Source of the DNA: Ruminococcus sp.
GTDB lineage: Bacteria; Bacillota; Clostridia; Oscillospirales; Ruminococcaceae
DNA length: 64,000 bases
NCBI RefSeq assembly: GCF_016287535.1
Contig: NZ_JAEFAJ010000001.1
Location: forward strand, 62,001-126,000
Direction of reading: 5' to 3'
The translations under genes were made by a program, and so were the position numbers. This document shows, piece after piece, positions 23,221 to 50,548 of this stretch (its first letter is position 1; every line of letters starts with the position of its first letter). The notes below the pieces were generated by a model. It was not told where the DNA came from. It saw nothing but the letters and a program-made list of their open reading frames with translations, and did not search any database.

Positions 23221-23316
23221 TGTATCTCAGCTCCGTTCAAATATTATTTTCGTATGATCCGGCTTTACTCTTCTATAATATCACAATAAACCTAAAAAAG
23301 CAACGAAAAAATAAAA

Positions 23317-23332
23317 CAGCTCGCAAGAGCTG
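23317..23332 (-). terminator. Terminator of the cobalamin-riboswitch operon
   Basis: Stem CAGCTC (23317-23322) / GAGCTG (23327-23332), loop GCAA, extended by A/T pairs, then TTTTATTTTTT on the minus strand. It closes the operon that starts at the riboswitch. Confidence 0.75.
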
Positions 23333-23351
23333 CTTTTAAAGCTGATATTGC

Positions 23352-24293
23352 TTACATATCCTGATCAGAGTTATGCTTAAACGGAATATTTACAATGACA
23401 ATACCGGCTGCAACAAGTAAAAGTGCAGCTGTAATTCCTGTAAATCCTGCGGAACTTTTTTCGGACAGAATGACAGATGACAGTATTACCCCGAATACAG
23501 GATTCATAAAACCGAATACCGACACTGTAGAAACATTATTATACTTTATCAGAGTTCCCCACAGTGAAAAAGCTGCAGCTGAAACAAATGCAAGATATAA
23601 AAGCATCAGTATTCCCTCTTTGTTTATAACCGTGATCCTGCCGCCTAAAAATATACCTGCTGCAGTCATGAATGAACCGCCGATAATAAACTGCCACCCG
23701 CTGAGTAAAACAGGATCCTCGGTCAGAGAGTACTTTTTCATCAGCGCCGCTGAAAAAGCATACGAAAGCGCTGAGAGAAAAACAAATCCCTCTCCAGTAA
23801 GTCTGAAACCTCCGCTTATACCGCTGAGATTTATCATAATAACACCGGAAAAACCAACAATGCAGCCGATTATTTTTCTGAATGTCAGCTTTTCAGCCTT
23901 AAAAATCAGCGCTGCAACAATTATTGATAAAAAAACATTGGAAGCTGTTATGACTGAACTCTTCATACCGGTACTTCTTGACAGTCCGATATAGAAAAAA
24001 GTATACTGAAGTATTGTCTGGAAACATGAAAGTTTAATTGCCTTATGAAGCGAATTTTTACTGATAATCAATGGTCTGCGGACAACAGCACTGCCGATGA
24101 TCAATGCAAATATACCGGCAAGAATAAAACGCAGACCGGCATATAGTATCTGTGAAAAAGTATCTCCTGCTGATATACCCGAAAATTGGCATCCAAGTTT
24201 GATGCAAGGAAATGCACTCCCCCATAAAAGACAGCATATCATAGCAATCAAAAACACAACAGCTTTATTTGTGAGAAGCTTTTTGCCAGTCAA
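23352..24293 (-). CDS. EamA/DMT-family transporter, last gene of B12-riboswitch operon
   Basis: The 313-residue, ten-helix membrane protein has two EamA repeats (FLIAMICCLLWGSAFPCIKL in the first; SALSYAFSAALMKKYSLTED in the second). Family members move amino acids, nucleosides and other metabolites, most often outward. The start is a TTG at 24293 whose last bases overlap the stop of the ATPase gene (TTGA), with AAGGTG 8 bp upstream, so it is translationally coupled and belongs to the riboswitch operon. Its substrate may be a corrinoid precursor or breakdown product, but nothing in the sequence shows this. Confidence 0.88.
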   Translation of the reverse strand: MTGKKLLTNKAVVFLIAMICCLLWGSAFPCIKLGCQFSGISAGDTFSQILYAGLRFILAGIFALIIGSAVVRRPLIISKNSLHKAIKLSCFQTILQYTFFYIGLSRSTGMKSSVITASNVFLSIIVAALIFKAEKLTFRKIIGCIVGFSGVIMINLSGISGGFRLTGEGFVFLSALSYAFSAALMKKYSLTEDPVLLSGWQFIIGGSFMTAAGIFLGGRITVINKEGILMLLYLAFVSAAAFSLWGTLIKYNNVSTVSVFGFMNPVFGVILSSVILSEKSSAGFTGITAALLLVAAGIVIVNIPFKHNSDQDM

Positions 24294-25399
24294 GAAACAG
24301 CACCTTCTTTTATTAGTCCTGACTTTTCTGCTTCTTTCGCAAGCGTAAGACAGAATTCATTCATTGTACCGAATTCTTTTACAGCACATATCACTCGTTT
24401 GCAGCGTCTCATTACCTGAAGAGCTTTTTCAAAACTTTCCTTAGATACAGATTCAAAAGCTTTTTCTGTTATCAGTTCTGAAGCAAGTGCGGACGCTACC
24501 GGGAATTCAATATCATTTTCATGTATTATACCTGCCGCAAACGGTATGCCCATACGCTGAAGACTGCGGTAAACAGAAATTCCGCTTCCGCCTCCGCCTA
24601 TTACAAATACTTCAGACATCCCCTCGCATTTTCCAAGTTCAGGTGAACCATAGCTTTCACAGAAACTGCCGTTTGTTATCCCGTAAAGCTCCTCGATATA
24701 TCCGTTTGAGAAAACCTCGTCCGGAGTGCCGATACGATCCGGACGCTCACCTTTGATACATAGGATATTATCAGAAACACGCTGTGCAAGCTCAAGTTCG
24801 TGAAGTGACATAATAATAGCGGTATTCTTCTCGCGTGCAATTTTTTTCAGAATACTCATTAGCTCAAGTTTGTATTTTATATCAAGAAATGTGGTGGGTT
24901 CGTCAAGTATAAGCACATCAGGTTCACGGCATATTGCTCCCGCAAGCAATACGCGCTGACGCTGACCGTCGCTAATTCTTTCAAAGTCACAGTACGCAAT
25001 ATCTTCGATATCTACATTTTTTATTGCTTCCGTTACCATTGCATGGTCATGTGCTGAAAGTATTCCAAGTCTGCCGGTATATGGATAACGGCCTGTTTCA
25101 ACAACATCAATGCACCTCATATACTCGGTTTTTGTCCTGTCGGTAAGCAAAAGTGAAACTGATCTTGCAAGTTCATTTCCGCTCAGGTTACGCAGATCGG
25201 TATTTCCGATAAAAACTGTACCGCCAAGAGGTTTTATCTGCCTGCAAAGAGTTTTAAGAACTGTGGACTTCCCTGCCCCGTTCGGACCGATAAGTGTAAG
25301 TATCTTTCCTTTTTCAGCTGATATCTCAACTCCGTTTATAACAGCTTTTTTCCCGTAACCTGCTGAAAGAGCGTGTGTACTTAACCAGGCTTCACACAT
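24290..25399 (-). CDS. BtuD/FecE-type ABC ATPase with extra C-terminal domain
   Basis: The 369-residue protein is longer than usual importer ATPases (about 255). Residues 1-255 are a complete siderophore/B12-type ATPase: Walker A GPNGAGKS (38-45), signature ISDGQRQRV (142-150), Walker B LILDEP (163-168), H-loop His200. Residues 264-369 form a separate domain beginning VFVIGGGGSGISVYRSLQRM, a nucleotide-binding-like glycine loop. From memory, similar tails occur on archaeal BtuD-type ATPases. The ATG at 25399 has GGGGAAAG and overlaps the permease gene by 8 bp. The riboswitch argues for corrinoid import over iron. Confidence 0.9.
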   Translation of the reverse strand: MCEAWLSTHALSAGYGKKAVINGVEISAEKGKILTLIGPNGAGKSTVLKTLCRQIKPLGGTVFIGNTDLRNLSGNELARSVSLLLTDRTKTEYMRCIDVVETGRYPYTGRLGILSAHDHAMVTEAIKNVDIEDIAYCDFERISDGQRQRVLLAGAICREPDVLILDEPTTFLDIKYKLELMSILKKIAREKNTAIIMSLHELELAQRVSDNILCIKGERPDRIGTPDEVFSNGYIEELYGITNGSFCESYGSPELGKCEGMSEVFVIGGGGSGISVYRSLQRMGIPFAAGIIHENDIEFPVASALASELITEKAFESVSKESFEKALQVMRRCKRVICAVKEFGTMNEFCLTLAKEAEKSGLIKEGAVS

Positions 25400-26414
25400 T
25401 TTTCTTTCCCCTTTCTCTGCAAAGAAGCATATATATAACCACAGGTGCTCCAAAAAATGATGTTACAGTGCTGATACTGAGTTCAGTCGGAGCAAAAAGT
25501 GTCCTTGTGACAAGATCACAGAACAGGCAAAATACCGCTCCGCCAAGGAAACAGGCGGGGATAATACAGATAGGCTTTGCAGTTTTAAAAAGAGATTTTA
25601 CAAGGTGCGGCACTGCAACACCAACAAAAGAAACTGGGCCGGCAAAAGCAGTAACACAGGCTGAAAGCAAACTTGACAGAAGTATCAGCGCTGTTCTGAA
25701 CATTTTTATATTAACGCCGGAATTACGAGCGTATTCTTCTCCGAGCTGATAAGCGTTCATTGGTTTGGCAAGCATAAAAGCACAGATACAAGCCGGGAAA
25801 ACAATAAATGCAGCAGTAAGTGTGTCCGTACCATCAATACCTGAAAAGCTGCCCATCGACCAGTTATGCAGATTTACTATATTGGAATCATCTGAGAAAT
25901 TGACAACAAGATCGGTTATAGCCGAACATATGTAACCAATCATGACTCCGCAAACTATAAGCACGGACATACGCCTTACCTTTCCTGAAATAAGAAGGAT
26001 AAGCCCCATAGATACCATTGAACCTATGAATGCTGCAGCGACCATTTCAGCTGAATTTCCTGTAAATCCATGTGAAAGCGATATTACCATAAACACGGCA
26101 ACAGCCAGTTTTGCGCCTGAAGAGATACCAAGTATATATGGCCCAGCTATAGGGTTGGCAAAAAAGTTCTGCAATAGGAAACCCGATACAGCCAAAGCGC
26201 CTCCGAGTATAGCTGCCGCAGCTGTTCTAGGGATACGCAGTCCGGTTATGATATTATAAGCCGCTTTGTCAGTATCCGGATTAAGCAGAGCATTCCACAG
26301 TCTTGAAAGTGATATGGATGCGCTTCCGATGCAGATATTCATTATCACGAGCAATGTAAAGAGTAACGTCAGGAATATATAACCGGCAACTATGCGTGAT
26401 CTGCGTGATTCCAT
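25392..26414 (-). CDS. BtuC/FecCD-type ABC permease
   Basis: The 340-residue permease has about ten hydrophobic helices and family motifs such as RIPRTAAAAILGGALAVSG near residue 60 and the coupling-helix region around GVAVPHLVKSL. It forms the homodimeric membrane channel of a type II importer for B12, haem or siderophores. It starts 3 bp after the binding-protein gene and overlaps the ATPase gene, so the three form one transporter. The upstream cobalamin riboswitch makes corrinoid the likeliest cargo. Confidence 0.92.
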   Translation of the reverse strand: MESRRSRIVAGYIFLTLLFTLLVIMNICIGSASISLSRLWNALLNPDTDKAAYNIITGLRIPRTAAAAILGGALAVSGFLLQNFFANPIAGPYILGISSGAKLAVAVFMVISLSHGFTGNSAEMVAAAFIGSMVSMGLILLISGKVRRMSVLIVCGVMIGYICSAITDLVVNFSDDSNIVNLHNWSMGSFSGIDGTDTLTAAFIVFPACICAFMLAKPMNAYQLGEEYARNSGVNIKMFRTALILLSSLLSACVTAFAGPVSFVGVAVPHLVKSLFKTAKPICIIPACFLGGAVFCLFCDLVTRTLFAPTELSISTVTSFFGAPVVIYMLLCRERGKKNV

Positions 26415-26417
26415 TAC

Positions 26418-27530
26418 TTATTCCCCCAAGCGGTACATAAAATTCATTTTGCTTTCGCAATTCTCAGTAAATATACTGTGAAGTTCGGTTATCATATCAG
26501 CTGCACCTGTGGTTTGCTGAAACATATTCTTTTCAGTACACCAGACATCCCCTTTTTTGACTGCAGAAAAATCTTTCAGCATCGGATATCTTTCTGTCAG
26601 GTCTTCCAGTGTATTTATCTCGCCTGTGATTGTACTGTTATAAATCAGAATATCTGTATCCCAGGCTTTTTCATAAAATACTTCAGGCTGTATGACCATG
26701 GTTGAAAGTGAATTTTCGTCAGTTTTAAGGTCATCTGCTGAGAAAACATATTCACCGCCTGCCATACGGATCATTTCCGGAACATAGTCATAAGGCTTCC
26801 GCACAACGACTCCACCGGATGAGTTGATATAGAAAAAAGCGACTGTTTTACCAGTTTTTTCATCGGAAAGTACACTGTCGATCTGAGAACACTTTTCCTC
26901 AAAAAAATTTTCTGCCGCATCACTGCAGTCAAAAAGAATACCGTAGAGCTTGATCCACTCCATTCTTCCGAGCGGATACTTTTCATAGCTCGAACGTTCA
27001 ACAAGAACCGGAATACCAAGTGATTCTATTTTTTCTTTAACATCCGGACTATGATATATCATAGTGGATTCAATAGCAAGTGAACAGTCGGATTCTATAA
27101 GTGCTTCATAATCAGGAGCACTGTATTTTCCGACGTAAAACATCTCATCGCTGTCAAAAGCCGATCTTACAGCCGGAAGATACCAGTCTTCGTATTTTGT
27201 TGATGTCATTGAAACTTTACCGAGAGAACCTGTACTGTCAATAAGATCCATAGCCGATGAAGCGGCATTGTATACATTTCCGAGAGGCTGTCTGATAATA
27301 ACAGCACCGTCTGTATTATCCGTAAAATCAGCATTTTCGGGAACTATGATATAATTATCTGTCCCAATTTTTACACAGGTACATCCGTTATCAAGAAATT
27401 CGGCTGTAAATTCCTTGGCATATTTCAGATAAAGCTTTTTTGTGCCGGCTTCTGTTTGATTTTCAGCCTGCAGTTTTGAACAGCTGCACAGCAAGAACAT
27501 TGAACATATGAAAAATAACCGTTTTATCAT
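26418..27530 (-). CDS. BtuF/FepB-like substrate-binding lipoprotein
   Basis: The 370-residue protein has a signal peptide ending in a lipobox (FLLCSC, lipid anchor probably Cys17). Its two-lobed binding-protein fold is shown by segments such as YEALIESDCSLAIESTMIYH and ERSSYEKYPLGRMEWIKLYG with a connecting helix after them. This is the type III (helical backbone) solute-binding family for B12, haem and siderophores. It would sit on the outer face of the membrane and feed the BtuC-like permease 3 bp downstream. It begins 1 bp after the NEAT-like gene. Confidence 0.9.
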   Translation of the reverse strand: MIKRLFFICSMFLLCSCSKLQAENQTEAGTKKLYLKYAKEFTAEFLDNGCTCVKIGTDNYIIVPENADFTDNTDGAVIIRQPLGNVYNAASSAMDLIDSTGSLGKVSMTSTKYEDWYLPAVRSAFDSDEMFYVGKYSAPDYEALIESDCSLAIESTMIYHSPDVKEKIESLGIPVLVERSSYEKYPLGRMEWIKLYGILFDCSDAAENFFEEKCSQIDSVLSDEKTGKTVAFFYINSSGGVVVRKPYDYVPEMIRMAGGEYVFSADDLKTDENSLSTMVIQPEVFYEKAWDTDILIYNSTITGEINTLEDLTERYPMLKDFSAVKKGDVWCTEKNMFQQTTGAADMITELHSIFTENCESKMNFMYRLGE

Positions 27531-27531
27531 T

Positions 27532-28443
27532 TTACTTTTTTATTGAATCTGAATCAAAGGTAAGAGTATATTCTATCTCATGAGGTGTACTCATTGCAGT
27601 TGTATCTGCAGAAACCGGCATTCTGTAGTCAAAAGCACTTACTGGTATTTCAAACACTGAAAATTCGTCAGTGCTGACGGGCAGTATCTTTTCTCCGTCA
27701 ACTACCATATAATCATATTTGTTGCTGCTCCATATGATCTCTGCATATGCTTTACCGTCCTTTACAGTCATCTTTGCCGGTGACTGTACGGTCGCCTTGC
27801 CTGAACCGCCGTCAAGCCTGACATTTACTTCATACACACCGTCTTCAAGCGAGAGCGATTCAAGAGACGTTATCGCACCGCTGCCAAGAGCTTCCTTAGG
27901 AAGCGAATCTGCCCGGAACACAAGCTTTCTGCCATACCACTGCTCTTTACGTTTGCTGAAAGCTGCACAGTCGATCTCTTTGTCGAGCGCTTCAACAGGC
28001 ACGGTAAATGATACAGTCTCACCTGACGGTACCGCATTTATATAATCACTTTCTGTAGCTTTTTCTGCATCATCTTCCGTTCCCATATACAGGAATTCAT
28101 AGCCGTTTCCGCTCATCGTCATTTCAGCAGTCATTTTACCACCTGAAACTCTTAGTTTGCAGGCAGTTATCTTGAACATTGAAGAACTTGAATCGACATC
28201 AATGTCATATTCGCCTTCATTTACAGAATCAGCATATATTGCCTTCATTCCTGAAAATCCGACTTTAAGCTGAGGTGCAGTTGCTTTTTCAGTAGTTGTG
28301 ACTGTTGTTGTGGCAAGAGTTTCCGGTTCACTTGAAGTTACAGCAGTTGTAACAGAAATGGAAGTGTTTTCCGCATTATCGGAGCATGAACACATCAGTG
28401 CTGCAATTAATAAACACGAGGCTAAAGCTGTTATTCTTTTCAT
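27532..28443 (-). CDS. NEAT-like two-domain lipoprotein in B12-regulated operon
   Basis: The 303-residue product has a signal peptide with a lipobox around residues 15-20 (ALMCSC), then a Thr/Ser-rich linker (30-56). Two similar beta-sandwich-like domains follow (about 57-185 and 195-300). The second has the NEAT-style pattern DGVYEVNVRL, SPAKMTVKDGKAYAEI and SSNKYDYMVVDG, with tyrosines where NEAT domains hold haem iron. I cannot confirm NEAT membership by eye. The ATG at 28443 has AAAGGTGAT. Between CbiK-like and BtuF-like lipoproteins, it may capture a tetrapyrrole at the surface. Confidence 0.75.
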   Translation of the reverse strand: MKRITALASCLLIAALMCSCSDNAENTSISVTTAVTSSEPETLATTTVTTTEKATAPQLKVGFSGMKAIYADSVNEGEYDIDVDSSSSMFKITACKLRVSGGKMTAEMTMSGNGYEFLYMGTEDDAEKATESDYINAVPSGETVSFTVPVEALDKEIDCAAFSKRKEQWYGRKLVFRADSLPKEALGSGAITSLESLSLEDGVYEVNVRLDGGSGKATVQSPAKMTVKDGKAYAEIIWSSNKYDYMVVDGEKILPVSTDEFSVFEIPVSAFDYRMPVSADTTAMSTPHEIEYTLTFDSDSIKK

Positions 28444-28463
28444 ATTATCACCTTTTATCAAAT

Positions 28464-28484
28464 AAGCCGACAAAATGTCGGCTT
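28464..28484. repeat. Hairpin between cbiK-like and NEAT-like genes
   Basis: Perfect 9-bp inverted repeat AAGCCGACA / TGTCGGCTT with a 3-nt loop lies in the 46-bp gap. On the minus strand only a weak T-run follows (ATTTGAT), so it may partly attenuate or protect mRNA ends rather than fully terminate. Confidence 0.6.
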
Positions 28485-28489
28485 TATTT

Positions 28490-29527
28490 TTAGTTTAATG
28501 AATCAATTGCCTTCTGTGCGTGATCTATATAGATCTTACGGATATCTTCGTTTTCACCAAGACCTCTGAGGAGGCATTCTACTTCAATACCCTCAGCCTC
28601 GAACAGCGATTTCCATGAGTCCTCATCATCGCCTGCCATGTCGTTGTTTGCATGATCGCCGGCAACAACCATAAGGGGTTCAAGAATTACCTTCTTGTAG
28701 CCGCCTTTTTTAACTTTTGAAATAACATCTTCAACCGTAGGTTCAGCTTCAACAGTTCCAACATAGTAATTTTTGAAATCATCGGCTGTGAGGAGATCCT
28801 GCATTTTCTGATAAACTGAATTAGAGGCAGCTTCCGTACCGTGTCCCATGAAGCAGATAGCTGTCTGACCGTCATCATATTCCTTTGTCCAGTCGATTAT
28901 AGCTTTTTCGACTCTTTTAAAGTCATCATCGCTTGTAAGAAGAGGCTCACCGATTGATACTTTATCGAATGCATCTGAATAGCTTGCGATTTTTTCGGTA
29001 AGTTCCTCATACTCAAGACCGTTCATAAGATGTGTCGGCTGTACAACGAGGTTCTTTACGCCGTTCTCAGATGCCCTTTCGAGCGCTGCATCGATATCAT
29101 CAATAAGGATTCCGTCACGCTTCTGAATATGATCGATAACGATATTGGCAGTAAAACCACGGCGAACAGAATAATCAGGGAAAGCTTTTTCAAGTGAATC
29201 CTCGATAGCTCCGATGGTAAGTCTGCGGCTGTCATTGAAGCTTGTTCCGAAGCTGATAACGAGAAGTTCATTTTCTCCGATATTATCCTGATTTCTGATA
29301 TTATCAAGAGAAGCGTCGCCTGTATTATAGTTTTCTTCGTCCTCTTCTTCAGAAGCTTCTGTAGTTGTTTCGGCTTCTGTTGTGTTTTCTGCTGTTGTGG
29401 TTACAATTGTAGTTGTTACTTCGGTGCTTTTTTCAGATGTGCTGACATTTGATTCAGCTCCGCATGATACTTCACAGGCTGTGAGCGAGATAGCAGCAAC
29501 TGCTGCAAGAAACTTTTTGATATTCAT
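28490..29527 (-). CDS. cbiK: Exported CbiK-like sirohydrochlorin cobaltochelatase lipoprotein
   Basis: The 345-residue protein has a signal peptide with lipobox LTAC (Cys18), a Thr/Glu-rich linker (30-66) and a CbiK chelatase domain (about 85-345). CbiK inserts Co2+ into sirohydrochlorin in anaerobic B12 synthesis. Metal-site residues are intact: His229 (FMGHGT), Glu260 (GTVEAEP), His292 (AGDHANNDMA). The usual enzyme is cytoplasmic, so the lipoprotein signal is unusual; it implies action outside the membrane on an imported or host tetrapyrrole. The ATG at 29527 has TAGGAGGA. It is the first gene after the cobalamin riboswitch. Confidence 0.9.
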   Translation of the reverse strand: MNIKKFLAAVAAISLTACEVSCGAESNVSTSEKSTEVTTTIVTTTAENTTEAETTTEASEEEDEENYNTGDASLDNIRNQDNIGENELLVISFGTSFNDSRRLTIGAIEDSLEKAFPDYSVRRGFTANIVIDHIQKRDGILIDDIDAALERASENGVKNLVVQPTHLMNGLEYEELTEKIASYSDAFDKVSIGEPLLTSDDDFKRVEKAIIDWTKEYDDGQTAICFMGHGTEAASNSVYQKMQDLLTADDFKNYYVGTVEAEPTVEDVISKVKKGGYKKVILEPLMVVAGDHANNDMAGDDEDSWKSLFEAEGIEVECLLRGLGENEDIRKIYIDHAQKAIDSLN

Positions 29528-29570
29528 TTTCTTTTCCTCCTATTTTTTAGGAGACATTATTTCGTGCGCA

Positions 29571-29600
29571 AAAAATACCTTCCGCACCCGGCAGAAGGCA
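29571..29600 (-). terminator. Riboswitch expression-platform terminator
   Basis: On the minus strand CCTTCTGCC pairs with GGAAGG across a short loop and runs into TATTTTTTG. It lies between the B12 aptamer and the ribosome-binding site of the cbiK-like gene, so cobalamin binding would favour premature termination. Confidence 0.75.
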
Positions 29601-29856
29601 TGACAAAAAAGCTCTGGTAAAGAGCGATGGTACGATCAATGCCTCGTGATCCGAGCTTTAGCCCTGTACCGATAAACGGCAGGTTTCCTGACTTGCAGAC
29701 AATGACACATTGCTCCGCCTTCCCGTTTTGATTCAGTGGCTGCATGAATGCGTGGAGAATGCTGTCTGTATACAGTGACGAGATCGTGCGGGATTTGCAC
29801 CCGCTTCCCTTTTACCTTTCATTGCTAAATAATGAAAGCACCGCTTACCATTTTTA
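29600..29856 (-). ncRNA. Cobalamin (AdoCbl-type) riboswitch
   Basis: The minus-strand leader holds the conserved B12 box (29678-29696, reading GCAAGTCAGGAAACCTGCC). Upstream of it are the other conserved blocks: GGGAAGCGGGTGCAAATCCC near 29790-29810, and GTCACTGTATACAGACAGC next to it. Together with a terminator just downstream, this is a classic transcription-attenuating B12 riboswitch. It should switch off the six downstream genes when adenosyl- or another cobalamin is plentiful. Exact aptamer ends are estimated by eye. Confidence 0.93.
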
Positions 29857-29877
29857 ATATTCATGAATACGTGAATT

Positions 29878-29906
29878 ATTATATCACAGTTCAGCTGTAA
29901 TTCCAA
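29878..29906 (-). promoter_or_regulatory. Promoter of cobalamin-riboswitch operon
   Basis: Minus strand -35 TTGGAA (29901-29906), 17-bp spacer, extended -10 TGATATAAT (hexamer 29878-29883), starting transcription just before the aptamer. Confidence 0.75.
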
Positions 29907-30099: not shown

Positions 30100-32856
30100 A
30101 TGAAAATAAAAAAGCTTATTTCAGCTGTCCTCTCGTGCTGTCTTATGCTTTCATTATTAGGCAAAACTGATGTATATGCATCAGGCAACAGGGTATCAGT
30201 GCATGATCCTTCAATAATAAAGGCAAACGATACATACTATGTTTTCGGCTCCCATACAGAAGCAGCCAGATCATCTGACCTTATAAACTGGAAACGCTTT
30301 TCCAACGGTTATGCCACAACAAACAATACAGAATTCGGTAATTTGTCTCAGAATCTGAAGAAAGCATTTGCATGGGCAGGAGAAGACCTTGAAGACTGTG
30401 AAGGAGGTTTTGCGGTATGGGCTCCGGATGTGGTGTGGGATGATGAATTTATAAACAGTGACGGAAGCAAAGGCGCGTATCTTATGTATTTCTGTACTTC
30501 ATCAACATATATGCGTTCTGTTATATCTTATGCGTCATCAAAATACATAGAAGGACCTTATGTGTTTGCCGATACTCTTATTTATTCTGGTTTTACAAAT
30601 AATGACAGCTACGCAAGGAGCAGCACCAAAAACGTAAACCGTAAATACACGTCAACAAATATTGACGAGCTTATCGCTGAAGGTAGGGTCACATTCAACA
30701 GCAATTGGTTCAGAAATGATAATTATAACAATCAGCTTTATCCTAATGCTATTGATCCGACGATATATACGGATAGTAACGGAAAAATGTATATGTGCTA
30801 CGGTTCATGGTCAGGAGGCATTTTTGCTCTTGAAATTGATAAAAAAACAGGTCAGTGCATACATCCGGAAACAGGACAGACATCCGACGGAAGAATGACA
30901 GACAGTTATTTTGGAACAAAGCTATCGGGAGGATATGGCAAATCTGGCGAAGGTCCGTTTATCGAGTACAATTCTGAAACAGGATATTATTATTTATGGG
31001 TAACATACGGCGGCCTTACATCGGCAGGCGGCTATAATATGCGTGTTTTTCGTTCACTCTCCCCTCTTGGTCCGTTTGTCGATCCGGCAGGCAGACAAGC
31101 TGTCCTATCTTCAAATTCTGATCTTGACTCTATCGGCCTCAAAGTAATGGGCAACTATAAATTCAGTTCCCTCAGCAAAGCGTATATGGCTTGCGGTCAT
31201 AATTCGGTTCTTCACGATGATGACGGAAAATGGTATCTTATATATCATACCCGTTTCGATGACGGCGCTGAGTTTCATGAAGTACGTGTACATTCCATAT
31301 ACTTCAATGAGCGTGGATGGCCGGTCGTGGCGCCTTATGAATACTCAGGAGATGAAATATCAGCATCCGGTTACAATACAGAGGATATCTGCGGAGAATA
31401 TGAATTTATAGATCACGGAACAGCTACCGATGGTAAAATAATAAACTATTCTTCTGTGAGACTTAATTCTGACGGAACTATAAGCGGTAGCGTATCCGGC
31501 AAATGGCAGCAGTCAAAGGACAACTCAGATGTTGAAATAACAATAAACAATCAGGTGTATTACGGCTGCTTCCTCGCTGCAATAGACGAAAACGGTAAAA
31601 AAGTTATGTCATTTACAGCTGTGGGCAGTAACAATCGTTCTGTATGGGGTGTGCAGACAAAAGATTTCACCGGCATACAGCGTTCAGTTTCCGCCGATTA
31701 TACTGATACAGACTCCCAGCTTATAGGCAATCCGGATAATGTTTCGGGAACAGGTACTTTTTCAAGACTAAGCAGTACAGAATTACTCAGCGGAGTTTCT
31801 TATTACATAATCAATCAAAACAGCGGATTTGCGATTGATATTCCTAATGGCAAACTCGATCAAGGTACAAATATTCAGCAATGGGAACGCAATGGGAGCT
31901 GGGCACAGCAATGGCGGATTATCTCCGTTGATGAAAACTACTGCCGGATCGTTTCGTCAGGTGACGAAGCAATGTGTATTGCTGTTGCTGAAAATTCCGG
32001 CGACGATGGTATCAACATCGAACTGCAGAAATACAAAGGCAGTGACGAGCAGCTTTTCATGTTGAGAAAATGCGGTACAGATTACGGAATCATATCGAAA
32101 TGTTCTGATAATACTGCCGGACTTGACGTTTATGAATGGTCAAAGGAAAACGGCGGCAATATAAACCAGTGGAATTACTGGGAAGGCGGCTGCCAGCTAT
32201 GGAGTATCACGCCTGTTTACCCAACCGTATCCGACGGCAGTTATATGGTGCGAAATGTTGACAGCGGACTTTATTTATTTGACAAGAACGGAAGCTGTGT
32301 ACAGTCGGATATTTACCGTATTTCATTTGAATATGATCCGTCAGGCGCTCCTCCTCCGTACAATGTGAACGATCAGATATGGACATTTAACAAAAATAGT
32401 GACGGTAGTTACTTTATAAAGAATCAGAAAGGAAAAGCTATTTCATCCGACAGTGCATTACATCTTAGTGTTATGGAATTTACCGGTTCTGATAATCAGC
32501 GTTTCAATGTAATATGCAATAAAGACGGCTCATATTCTATTATACAGTCGCAAAAGTACATCGGCACAGAAAACAACAGTAAAAATTTTGAATCATCTCT
32601 TTGCCTTAACACAATTACAGGAGCTGACAGTTGTAAATTTGTTCTGGAGCCGATTGTCCCGGAAGAAATAGTATCGCCTGTCATCGGAGATGTAAATGAT
32701 GATGGTATTATAAGCATGGCTGATCTTGTAATGCTGCAAAAATATCTGCTCAAAGCCGGTAATCTGATAAAATCTTTTACAGCAGACGTTAACAAAGATG
32801 GCTATGTGGACGTTTTCGACAGTGTTGCACTGAGAAAACTCCTGATAACCCAGTAA
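30100..32856 (+). CDS. Secreted GH43 arabinanase with ricin-type modules and dockerin
   Basis: The 918-residue modular enzyme has: signal peptide 1-28; GH43 five-bladed propeller about 30-415 with the expected acidic triad Asp36 (VHDPSI), Asp219 (AIDPTI) and Glu284 (GEGPF), and His367 (GHNSV); a GH43 C-terminal beta-domain about 425-530; ricin B-like (CBM13) modules about 565-705 and 710-850; and a type I dockerin at 862-918 (GDVNDDGIISMADLVMLQKY and DVNKDGYVDVFDSVALRKLL). It probably cleaves alpha-1,5-arabinan in pectin, anchored to a scaffoldin by the dockerin. The start has AGGAGGAA. Monocistronic. Confidence 0.93.
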   Translation: MKIKKLISAVLSCCLMLSLLGKTDVYASGNRVSVHDPSIIKANDTYYVFGSHTEAARSSDLINWKRFSNGYATTNNTEFGNLSQNLKKAFAWAGEDLEDCEGGFAVWAPDVVWDDEFINSDGSKGAYLMYFCTSSTYMRSVISYASSKYIEGPYVFADTLIYSGFTNNDSYARSSTKNVNRKYTSTNIDELIAEGRVTFNSNWFRNDNYNNQLYPNAIDPTIYTDSNGKMYMCYGSWSGGIFALEIDKKTGQCIHPETGQTSDGRMTDSYFGTKLSGGYGKSGEGPFIEYNSETGYYYLWVTYGGLTSAGGYNMRVFRSLSPLGPFVDPAGRQAVLSSNSDLDSIGLKVMGNYKFSSLSKAYMACGHNSVLHDDDGKWYLIYHTRFDDGAEFHEVRVHSIYFNERGWPVVAPYEYSGDEISASGYNTEDICGEYEFIDHGTATDGKIINYSSVRLNSDGTISGSVSGKWQQSKDNSDVEITINNQVYYGCFLAAIDENGKKVMSFTAVGSNNRSVWGVQTKDFTGIQRSVSADYTDTDSQLIGNPDNVSGTGTFSRLSSTELLSGVSYYIINQNSGFAIDIPNGKLDQGTNIQQWERNGSWAQQWRIISVDENYCRIVSSGDEAMCIAVAENSGDDGINIELQKYKGSDEQLFMLRKCGTDYGIISKCSDNTAGLDVYEWSKENGGNINQWNYWEGGCQLWSITPVYPTVSDGSYMVRNVDSGLYLFDKNGSCVQSDIYRISFEYDPSGAPPPYNVNDQIWTFNKNSDGSYFIKNQKGKAISSDSALHLSVMEFTGSDNQRFNVICNKDGSYSIIQSQKYIGTENNSKNFESSLCLNTITGADSCKFVLEPIVPEEIVSPVIGDVNDDGIISMADLVMLQKYLLKAGNLIKSFTADVNKDGYVDVFDSVALRKLLITQ

Positions 32857-50325: not shown

Positions 50326-50520
50326 AAAAAAAGCCCCGCCGCCAAATGGGACGAAGGCTCTCGTGGTACCACCCAAATTTGAGGAAATTACTATATTTCC
50401 TCCTCTTGCTTCCTTAACGCAGAAATACGCTCCGGTTTCCCGAAGAGGCTCAGGGGTAGCACCTGTATATCATGCAAAAGCTCACACCATCCGCTTTTTC
50501 TCTGTATCATGACATTTACA
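50326..50520 (-). ncRNA. T-box leader of alaS (specifier GCT, Ala)
   Basis: The minus-strand leader contains the T-box GGGTGGTACCACG (50362-50374), which pairs with the uncharged tRNA acceptor end. It runs directly into a G+C-rich hairpin and seven T (50326-50361). Upstream, GCTACCCCTGAG places the alanine specifier codon GCT at 50458-50460, preceded by the AG-rich stem-I sequence. It reads through when tRNA-Ala is uncharged. Outer limits are estimated. Confidence 0.93.
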
Positions 50521-50548
50521 GTCATTCCCGTCAATGCTATACATTAGT

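Follow-up and report, generated by a model that had tools for sequence, protein, structure and literature searches.

A six-gene operon on the minus strand of a 64,000-nucleotide stretch of Ruminococcus sp. contig NZ_JAEFAJ010000001.1 (hereafter the window) places a CbiK-family chelatase with a lipoprotein signal, a NEAT-fold lipoprotein and a BtuFCD-type importer behind a cobalamin riboswitch (Table 1). Among the 89 genomes of its family set that carry CbiC, lipoprotein CbiK goes with loss of both HemC and SUMT, and this association is clear across genera. We propose that the operon serves to salvage a macrocycle precursor of B12: sirohydrochlorin would be captured, loaded with cobalt by the exported CbiK and relayed to the importer, a reading to which we give about an even chance of being right.

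When adenosylcobalamin is scarce, the riboswitch would, to judge from its family, permit transcription of the operon. Sitting on the membrane's outer face, the CbiK lipoprotein would then put cobalt into sirohydrochlorin that other organisms had made. From the tandem NEAT lipoprotein the resulting cobalt-sirohydrochlorin would pass to the BtuF-like protein, to be brought by BtuCD straight to CbiL, with which the cell's own corrin pathway begins. The observed support for this proposal is the operon anatomy, the riboswitch, the kept metal-site residues, the single CbiK/CbiX, HemC, SUMT and CbiM not being found, the conserved neighbourhood and the gene fusions; the export of CbiK, the ligand, the direction of metal insertion and the relay order we infer, the first of these from the lipobox.

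Corrin synthesis and its missing early steps

On a separate contig of the window genome there is a run of CbiL, CbiD, CbiF, CbiG, CbiH, CbiET, CbiA, CobT, CobU, CobS, CobC, CbiB, CobD, CbiP and CbiC (CbiC assigned by Pfam, the others by sequence reading; CbiJ was not looked for). Profile search detected no HemC in this genome, and CbiM was not found in it. None of its five TP-methylase matches, namely CbiF, CbiL, CbiH, CbiET and one taken for RsmI, reached the SUMT cut-off, and the precorrin-2 dehydrogenase-type family PF13241 gave a single weak match of 25.6 bits in a 470-residue frame. The genome is thus a salvager in the sense of having the corrin genes but no HemC or SUMT found (the search did not extend to HemB or HemD). 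Since it is 90.5% complete and 6.4% contaminated, the absence of HemC and SUMT rests also on two sister genomes, G135 and G206 (98-99% complete), with the same gene pattern; a third sister, G019, has both genes. Assembly gaps as the cause were rejected, as 20 of the 26 other lipoprotein-CbiK genomes without HemC and SUMT are listed as at least 95% complete. With the cbi run present and HemC, SUMT and CbiM not found, the window cell appears equipped to turn cobalt-sirohydrochlorin into the corrin ring yet unable to make sirohydrochlorin itself, and the only CbiK found is the one predicted to be outside.

The family set consisted of 297 genomes, with a CbiK match in 106 (102 over the cut-off), CbiC in 89, HemC in 62, SUMT over the cut-off in 71 and a riboswitch match in 200 (187 over the cut-off). 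Riboswitches at the CbiK loci were mapped with an nhmmer profile from alignment A1, replacing a regular expression that missed known sites. The location of CbiK was classed in 90 of the 106 genomes, the remaining 16 having weak or fragmentary matches. Lipoprotein status was set by eye for G000, G241 and G289, missed by the regular expression (for G289 it is assumed, because the printed stretch ends before any cysteine); the false positives G202 and G257 were set to cytoplasmic, and G006, G145 and G214 were called membrane-anchored and counted as not lipoprotein.

Among the 89 CbiC-positive genomes, the 43 lacking both HemC and SUMT comprised 27 with lipoprotein CbiK, nine with cytoplasmic CbiK, six without CbiK and one with a truncated form, and the 37 having both genes comprised 5 lipoprotein, 25 cytoplasmic, 3 membrane-anchored, 3 without CbiK and 1 truncated. 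SUMT without HemC was found in seven (six with cytoplasmic CbiK, one with none). Only G012 and G235 had HemC without SUMT over the cut-off; each carries one lipoprotein and one cytoplasmic CbiK, a natural pairing for comparison of the two forms, and contig starts hold the HemC of G012 and a SUMT-like piece of G235. The two-by-two tables exclude these two groups, the truncated-CbiK genomes G286 and G159, G080 (lipoprotein, no CbiC match) and genomes without CbiK.

A FecCD permease within 6 kb of CbiK on the same strand was found in 31 of the 36 genomes without HemC and SUMT versus 5 of the 33 having both. By class, it adjoined 24/26 lipoprotein (25/27 with the window) and 6/9 cytoplasmic CbiK genes in the former group, and 5/5 lipoprotein, 0/25 cytoplasmic and 0/3 membrane-anchored ones in the latter; for genomes with SUMT alone the count was 1/6. 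A riboswitch stood upstream in 24 of the 26 lipoprotein loci without HemC and SUMT, within 700 bases in 20. For cytoplasmic loci of genomes with both genes it was detected in 15 of 26 (the truncated G159 included), mostly about 3 kb away, and the order riboswitch, CbiM, CbiQ, CbiO, CbiK was read in two complete-pathway loci, L085 (checked by Pfam) and L103 (by eye).

CbiM, counted from 170 bits up (36 genomes, with G235 among them; the next match has 39 bits, and the Pfam cut-off would give 58), was present in 2 of 32 lipoprotein genomes versus 22 of 37 others. It was also nearly exclusive with FecCD beside CbiK (3/36 versus 21/33 without), as would be explained if the FecCD importer stood in for CbiMNQO and took up free or chelated cobalt, with the outside CbiK as a cobalt-binding partner. 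A precedent is Sinorhizobium CbtJKL, which has a BtuF-like protein, is riboswitch-controlled and, according to a passage of PMC7689651, imports Co(II). We consider such cobalt import rather improbable here: it leaves the loss of HemC and SUMT unexplained, and among genomes with cytoplasmic CbiK and no CbiM, FecCD adjoined CbiK in 5/8 without HemC and SUMT versus 0/7 with both (p 0.026). Against it stands also the NEAT fold, which in our comparison is that of haem and metalloporphyrin complexes and which is found fused both to CbiK and to BtuF.

The operon and its proteins

The gene order described in the first-pass annotation proved real, with the cobalamin riboswitch, the terminator and the CbiK-lipoprotein, NEAT, BtuF-, BtuC- and BtuD-like genes all confirmed; the scores of the riboswitch and of CbiK ruled out chance matches and wrong annotation. 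A search for the same order in other Clostridia, as that annotation had suggested, showed the CbiK/importer neighbourhood to be conserved there, the sixth gene excepted. The EamA gene, which had been counted as a working member, had no counterpart in the other CbiK loci compared; not being conserved, it was dropped from the system as incidental.

Table 1. Features of the operon, in window coordinates
Feature	Position	Strand	Basis or remark
Sigma-70-like promoter, TTGGAA-17-TATAAT	29878..29906	-	consensus scan
Cobalamin riboswitch aptamer, RF00174	29661..29860	-	sole RF00174 match in the genome
Terminator-like hairpin between aptamer and first gene	29575..29601	-	hairpin scan; also appears in RNA fold
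CbiK-family chelatase; lipoprotein signal C18, T/E-rich linker	28490..29527	-	profile match
Tandem NEAT-fold lipoprotein	27532..28443	-	start set at ATG 28443
BtuF-like solute-binding lipoprotein, PF01497	26418..27530	-	profile match
BtuC-like FecCD permease, PF01032	25392..26414	-	profile match
BtuD-like ATPase; C-terminal domain of ~110 residues	24290..25399	-	profile match
EamA/DMT transporter, last gene of operon	23352..24293	-	profile match
Terminator-like hairpin at operon end	23313..23336	-	hairpin scan

The window CbiK, of the class II chelatase fold, matched PF06180 with 285.9 bits (curated cut-off 26.2), and was the only PF06180 match and the only CbiX-family match in a genome-wide profile search. 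Against NF047852, the NCBIfam equivalog for sirohydrochlorin cobaltochelatase, it scored 240.3 bits, below the 400-bit threshold. Its H229 and H292 align with H145 and H207 of 1qgo; the earlier observation that His229, Glu260 and His292 are kept was borne out, and the same His/Glu/His set was retained in 72/72 lipoprotein forms. Its lipobox points to export. CbiK-NEAT fusions were found in five loci, and NEAT-BtuF fusions also exist; in L124:7828-10173 a single open frame of 781 residues carries a lipoprotein signal, two CbiK domains and a NEAT domain. As to the earlier claim that a surface chelatase loads or strips metal from a captured tetrapyrrole before import, a metal-site-intact exported CbiK tied to an importer under B12 control stood, and a tetrapyrrole is the likely cargo in view of the tandem NEAT fold and the fusions; which tetrapyrrole, and why, had been missed. 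Because corrin genes are present without the steps that make sirohydrochlorin, and this CbiK is the sole CbiK/CbiX found, cobalt loading of a B12 precursor is favoured over a role in haem metabolism.

The NEAT protein fell short of the PF05031 cut-off of 32.8 bits (29.2 in full, 32.0 for the mature part), and 26 of its 35 relatives matched at E 0.01. Its predicted model, compared by VIA-align, has the NEAT beta-sandwich fold; a PDB sequence search with the protein alone found no NEAT structure. The YxxxY motif is the haem-iron ligand of NEAT domains. With YHHFY of IsdX2-NEAT5 as reference, domain 1 has Lys at the place of the first Tyr in 34 of 35 sequences, and the matching place of domain 2, located by eye, holds His in 27, Tyr in 7 and Val in 1. 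This Lys speaks against acquisition of haem or haem iron by a surface dechelatase, after the manner of Porphyromonas gingivalis IhtB, as do the B12 riboswitch in front of the operon and neighbours that are often cbi genes; we regard haem acquisition as quite improbable.

PF01497, PF01032 and PF00005 occur together in the operon, as in a FecCD-type importer. Both BtuC and BtuD of the window scored well against corrinoid transporter models, yet under the curated cut-offs, and model NF007082, for ATPases of corrinoid ABC transporters, likewise spans the C-terminal domain of the ATPase. When BtuF was compared with PDB sequences, a single weak match, Lmo2184 (E 0.0015), was obtained. Genes of the btu type are usually under riboswitch control. 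These scores and this control would suit an ordinary cobamide or cobinamide importer with CbiK as a passenger from an adjoining cbi operon, as would the CbiP-CbiC pair directly upstream of the CbiK operon in several loci. A passenger CbiK is at odds with the lipoprotein signal, the five NEAT fusions and the invariant metal site, and, with this CbiK exported, no CbiK/CbiX found in the genome is cytoplasmic, so that plain corrinoid uptake appears quite unlikely. It is ranked, with haem uptake, as weaker than precursor salvage.

Several further observations were made. The ATPases tend to score lower in loci where CbiK comes after the ATPase gene, and in one salvager a CGGC-domain protein (PF08821; L091:8563-8901), possibly for metal handling, lies between the ATPase and cytoplasmic CbiK. 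The interval from the CbiK gene to the NEAT gene holds a hairpin (28464-28484) that could adjust expression inside the operon. Divergent from the operon, positions 30100-32856 of the window encode a large secreted, carbohydrate-active-looking protein with a dockerin-like repeat at its end (by eye), and a T-box leader (RF00230, 104.1 bits) lies on the minus strand at 50344-50543.

Strength of the association and points against salvage

Fisher tests ignoring kinship gave p = 2e-6 for lipoprotein CbiK and 1e-8 for FecCD; when a single genome was drawn from each of 41 genera (1000 draws) the median p was 9e-5 and 7e-7, respectively. In a tree built from 170 CbiK sequences, the lipoprotein label requires 10 changes. 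The association is thus clear across genera, since it holds under genus resampling, yet it is built on few independent events, and this is the first of several observations that weigh against the salvage proposal. The CbiK tree offers 6 independent contrasts on supported branches (13 on all branches); those for FecCD averaged 2.5 in the expected direction and 0.3 in the opposite one, those for lipoprotein CbiK 0.4 and 0.0, with significance out of reach for both.

Next, five genomes with lipoprotein CbiK have HemC and SUMT (G019, G278, G005, G118, G157). Two of them have a siroheme-type reductase (NIR_SIR) near the HemC/SUMT cluster. In G019 a HemA-SirC-HemC-CobA/HemD-HemB-HemL cluster (SirC and CobA/HemD by Pfam, the rest by reading), on a contig other than that of the cbi genes, has in its vicinity a NIR_SIR reductase and a presumed sulfate importer of the ABC type, and so probably serves siroheme synthesis. 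In G278 the NIR_SIR-like gene scores 97 bits, and the examined stretches of G005, G118 and G157 showed no such gene. Six genomes with CbiC and without HemC and SUMT show no CbiK over the threshold. One of them, G147, contains fragments of CbiK; three others, G149, G218 and G273, show a single TIGR01469 match each and may therefore be without a corrin pathway.

Nine genomes without HemC and SUMT have cytoplasmic CbiK only. As eight of the nine are without CbiM, its loss is not specific to exported CbiK; a PF01497 protein was present in both loci checked among the six with an adjoining FecCD importer. These nine fit precursor import and not metal insertion outside. The six importers agree as well with a salvage line of other chemistry, in which CbiK outside removes or exchanges the metal of siroheme or of some other metallated cargo, or in which sirohydrochlorin enters free of metal and CbiK merely binds it; most class II chelatases are described in a passage of PMC7689651 as without metal specificity. 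Such chemistry is unlikely in our judgement, as the window genome shows no second CbiK/CbiX for later cobalt insertion and no CbiM.

Two further points against cobalt loading by an exported CbiK come from outside the family. Porphyromonas IhtB is described as haem-binding in part of PMC10913741, and structure entry 9b86 is named so too. Moreover, 3 of the 11 controls in the SUMT test described below (L132, L146, L170) have a Sec-type CbiK signal together with SUMT, indicating that export alone is not coupled to SUMT loss.

Relatives in other phyla and comparison with known systems

Operons of this type recur across Clostridia, and related ones occur in Treponema and Bacteroidota. When named genomes were scanned with FetB, 80 loci were obtained; of the 39 flagged as lipoprotein by rule, a FecCD gene lay within 6 kb in 33 and a riboswitch preceded CbiK in 30, several of the misses being at contig starts. 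The riboswitch precedes the CbiK locus of one Prolixibacteraceae (L121), and none was found in the 12 kb examined of the other (L122). For the SUMT test, 50 genomes were hand-chosen from the 80 named loci, completeness figures not being given. SUMT was over the cut-off in 10 of 39 genomes with lipoprotein or otherwise exported CbiK versus 11/11 controls, and in 26 of the 39 a CbiF-like match of at least 100 bits occurred without SUMT; these include P. gulae, P. loveana, Prolixibacteraceae L122 and Treponema L127, L171 and L179. This set of 39 differs partly from the rule-flagged loci: L130, L174 and L187 were judged lipoprotein by eye, L175 and L177 are Sec-type without the cysteine, and L158 also has a cytoplasmic CbiK. 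Judging by their shared N-termini, L129 and L160 are apparently identical with G157 and G067 of the family set. At eight loci of sulfate-reducer or Deltaproteobacteria type (L140, L141, L146, L155, L165, L180, L190, L193), a Sec-type CbiK has a riboswitch upstream and BtuC close behind; SUMT, checked among these in the L146 genome, was present.

More broadly, sirohydrochlorin might be a shared cobaltophore of anaerobic communities, released by producers, charged with cobalt by exported CbiK and imported with it through NEAT and BtuFCD, such that bacteria with the operon but neither HemC nor SUMT subsist on sirohydrochlorin made by others, the Porphyromonas iht system being the Gram-negative form. 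We hold this extension only tentatively, as doubtful. If true, it would solve how a corrin pathway persists without precorrin-2 synthesis; a 2000 paper on P. gingivalis reportedly calls such a pathway an enigma in its title. If the salvage proposal is right, a B12 macrocycle precursor would join the goods exchanged in anaerobic communities, one metal insertion step would be located outside the cell, and the iht locus, described as haem uptake, may serve B12 synthesis.

Precorrin-2 salvagers are already known as a genome class (PMC6461909; PMC8123684), and the passages of these surveys name no importer for them; the B12-controlled operon is a testable candidate. Periplasmic CbiK (2xvx) and Porphyromonas IhtB (PMC10913741, in part) are likewise known. 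In the open-licence literature, with most subscription journals outside coverage, no text was found that joins exported CbiK, importer and precursor salvage.

Salvagers of tetrapyrrole precursors (Shelton et al. 2018) share with the window genome a corrin pathway without the early tetrapyrrole steps. In the passages of that survey (PMC6461909), P. gingivalis is listed as without precorrin-2 synthesis, use of ALA is verified in three species and no importer is named. Cytoplasmic CbiK accompanied by CbiMNQO belongs to the same chelatase family, with the same metal-site histidines, but has no signal, adjoins a cobalt importer in the loci checked and occurs in genomes mostly having HemC and SUMT. 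In Desulfovibrio, with its periplasmic CbiK (2xvx, 2xvz) and btuCDF, B12 control of cbiK-cbiL and btuCDF is described in part of PMC545781; the Deltaproteobacteria examined differ from the window in having Sec-type rather than lipobox N-termini (by eye), no NEAT nearby, and SUMT in the two tested.

The system most like that of the window is Porphyromonas ihtABCDE (IhtB/FetB, PDB 9b86), in which, in P. gulae and P. loveana, a CbiK-like lipoprotein gene is followed by PBP-like, FecCD and ATPase genes, a cobalamin riboswitch lies upstream and no SUMT is over the cut-off. For P. gingivalis, the riboswitch before ihtA is already in print, the operon there still being read as hemin transport (PMC3764172, in part). 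The iht system differs in being Gram-negative, with an outer-membrane receptor gene and no NEAT match, and in being described as haem uptake. The NEAT haemophores IsdX1, IsdC and Hbp2 have the NEAT fold in common with the window protein, but proteins of the window type carry Lys (domain 1) and mostly His (domain 2, 27/35) at the first Tyr of YxxxY, and the window gene sits behind a B12 riboswitch.

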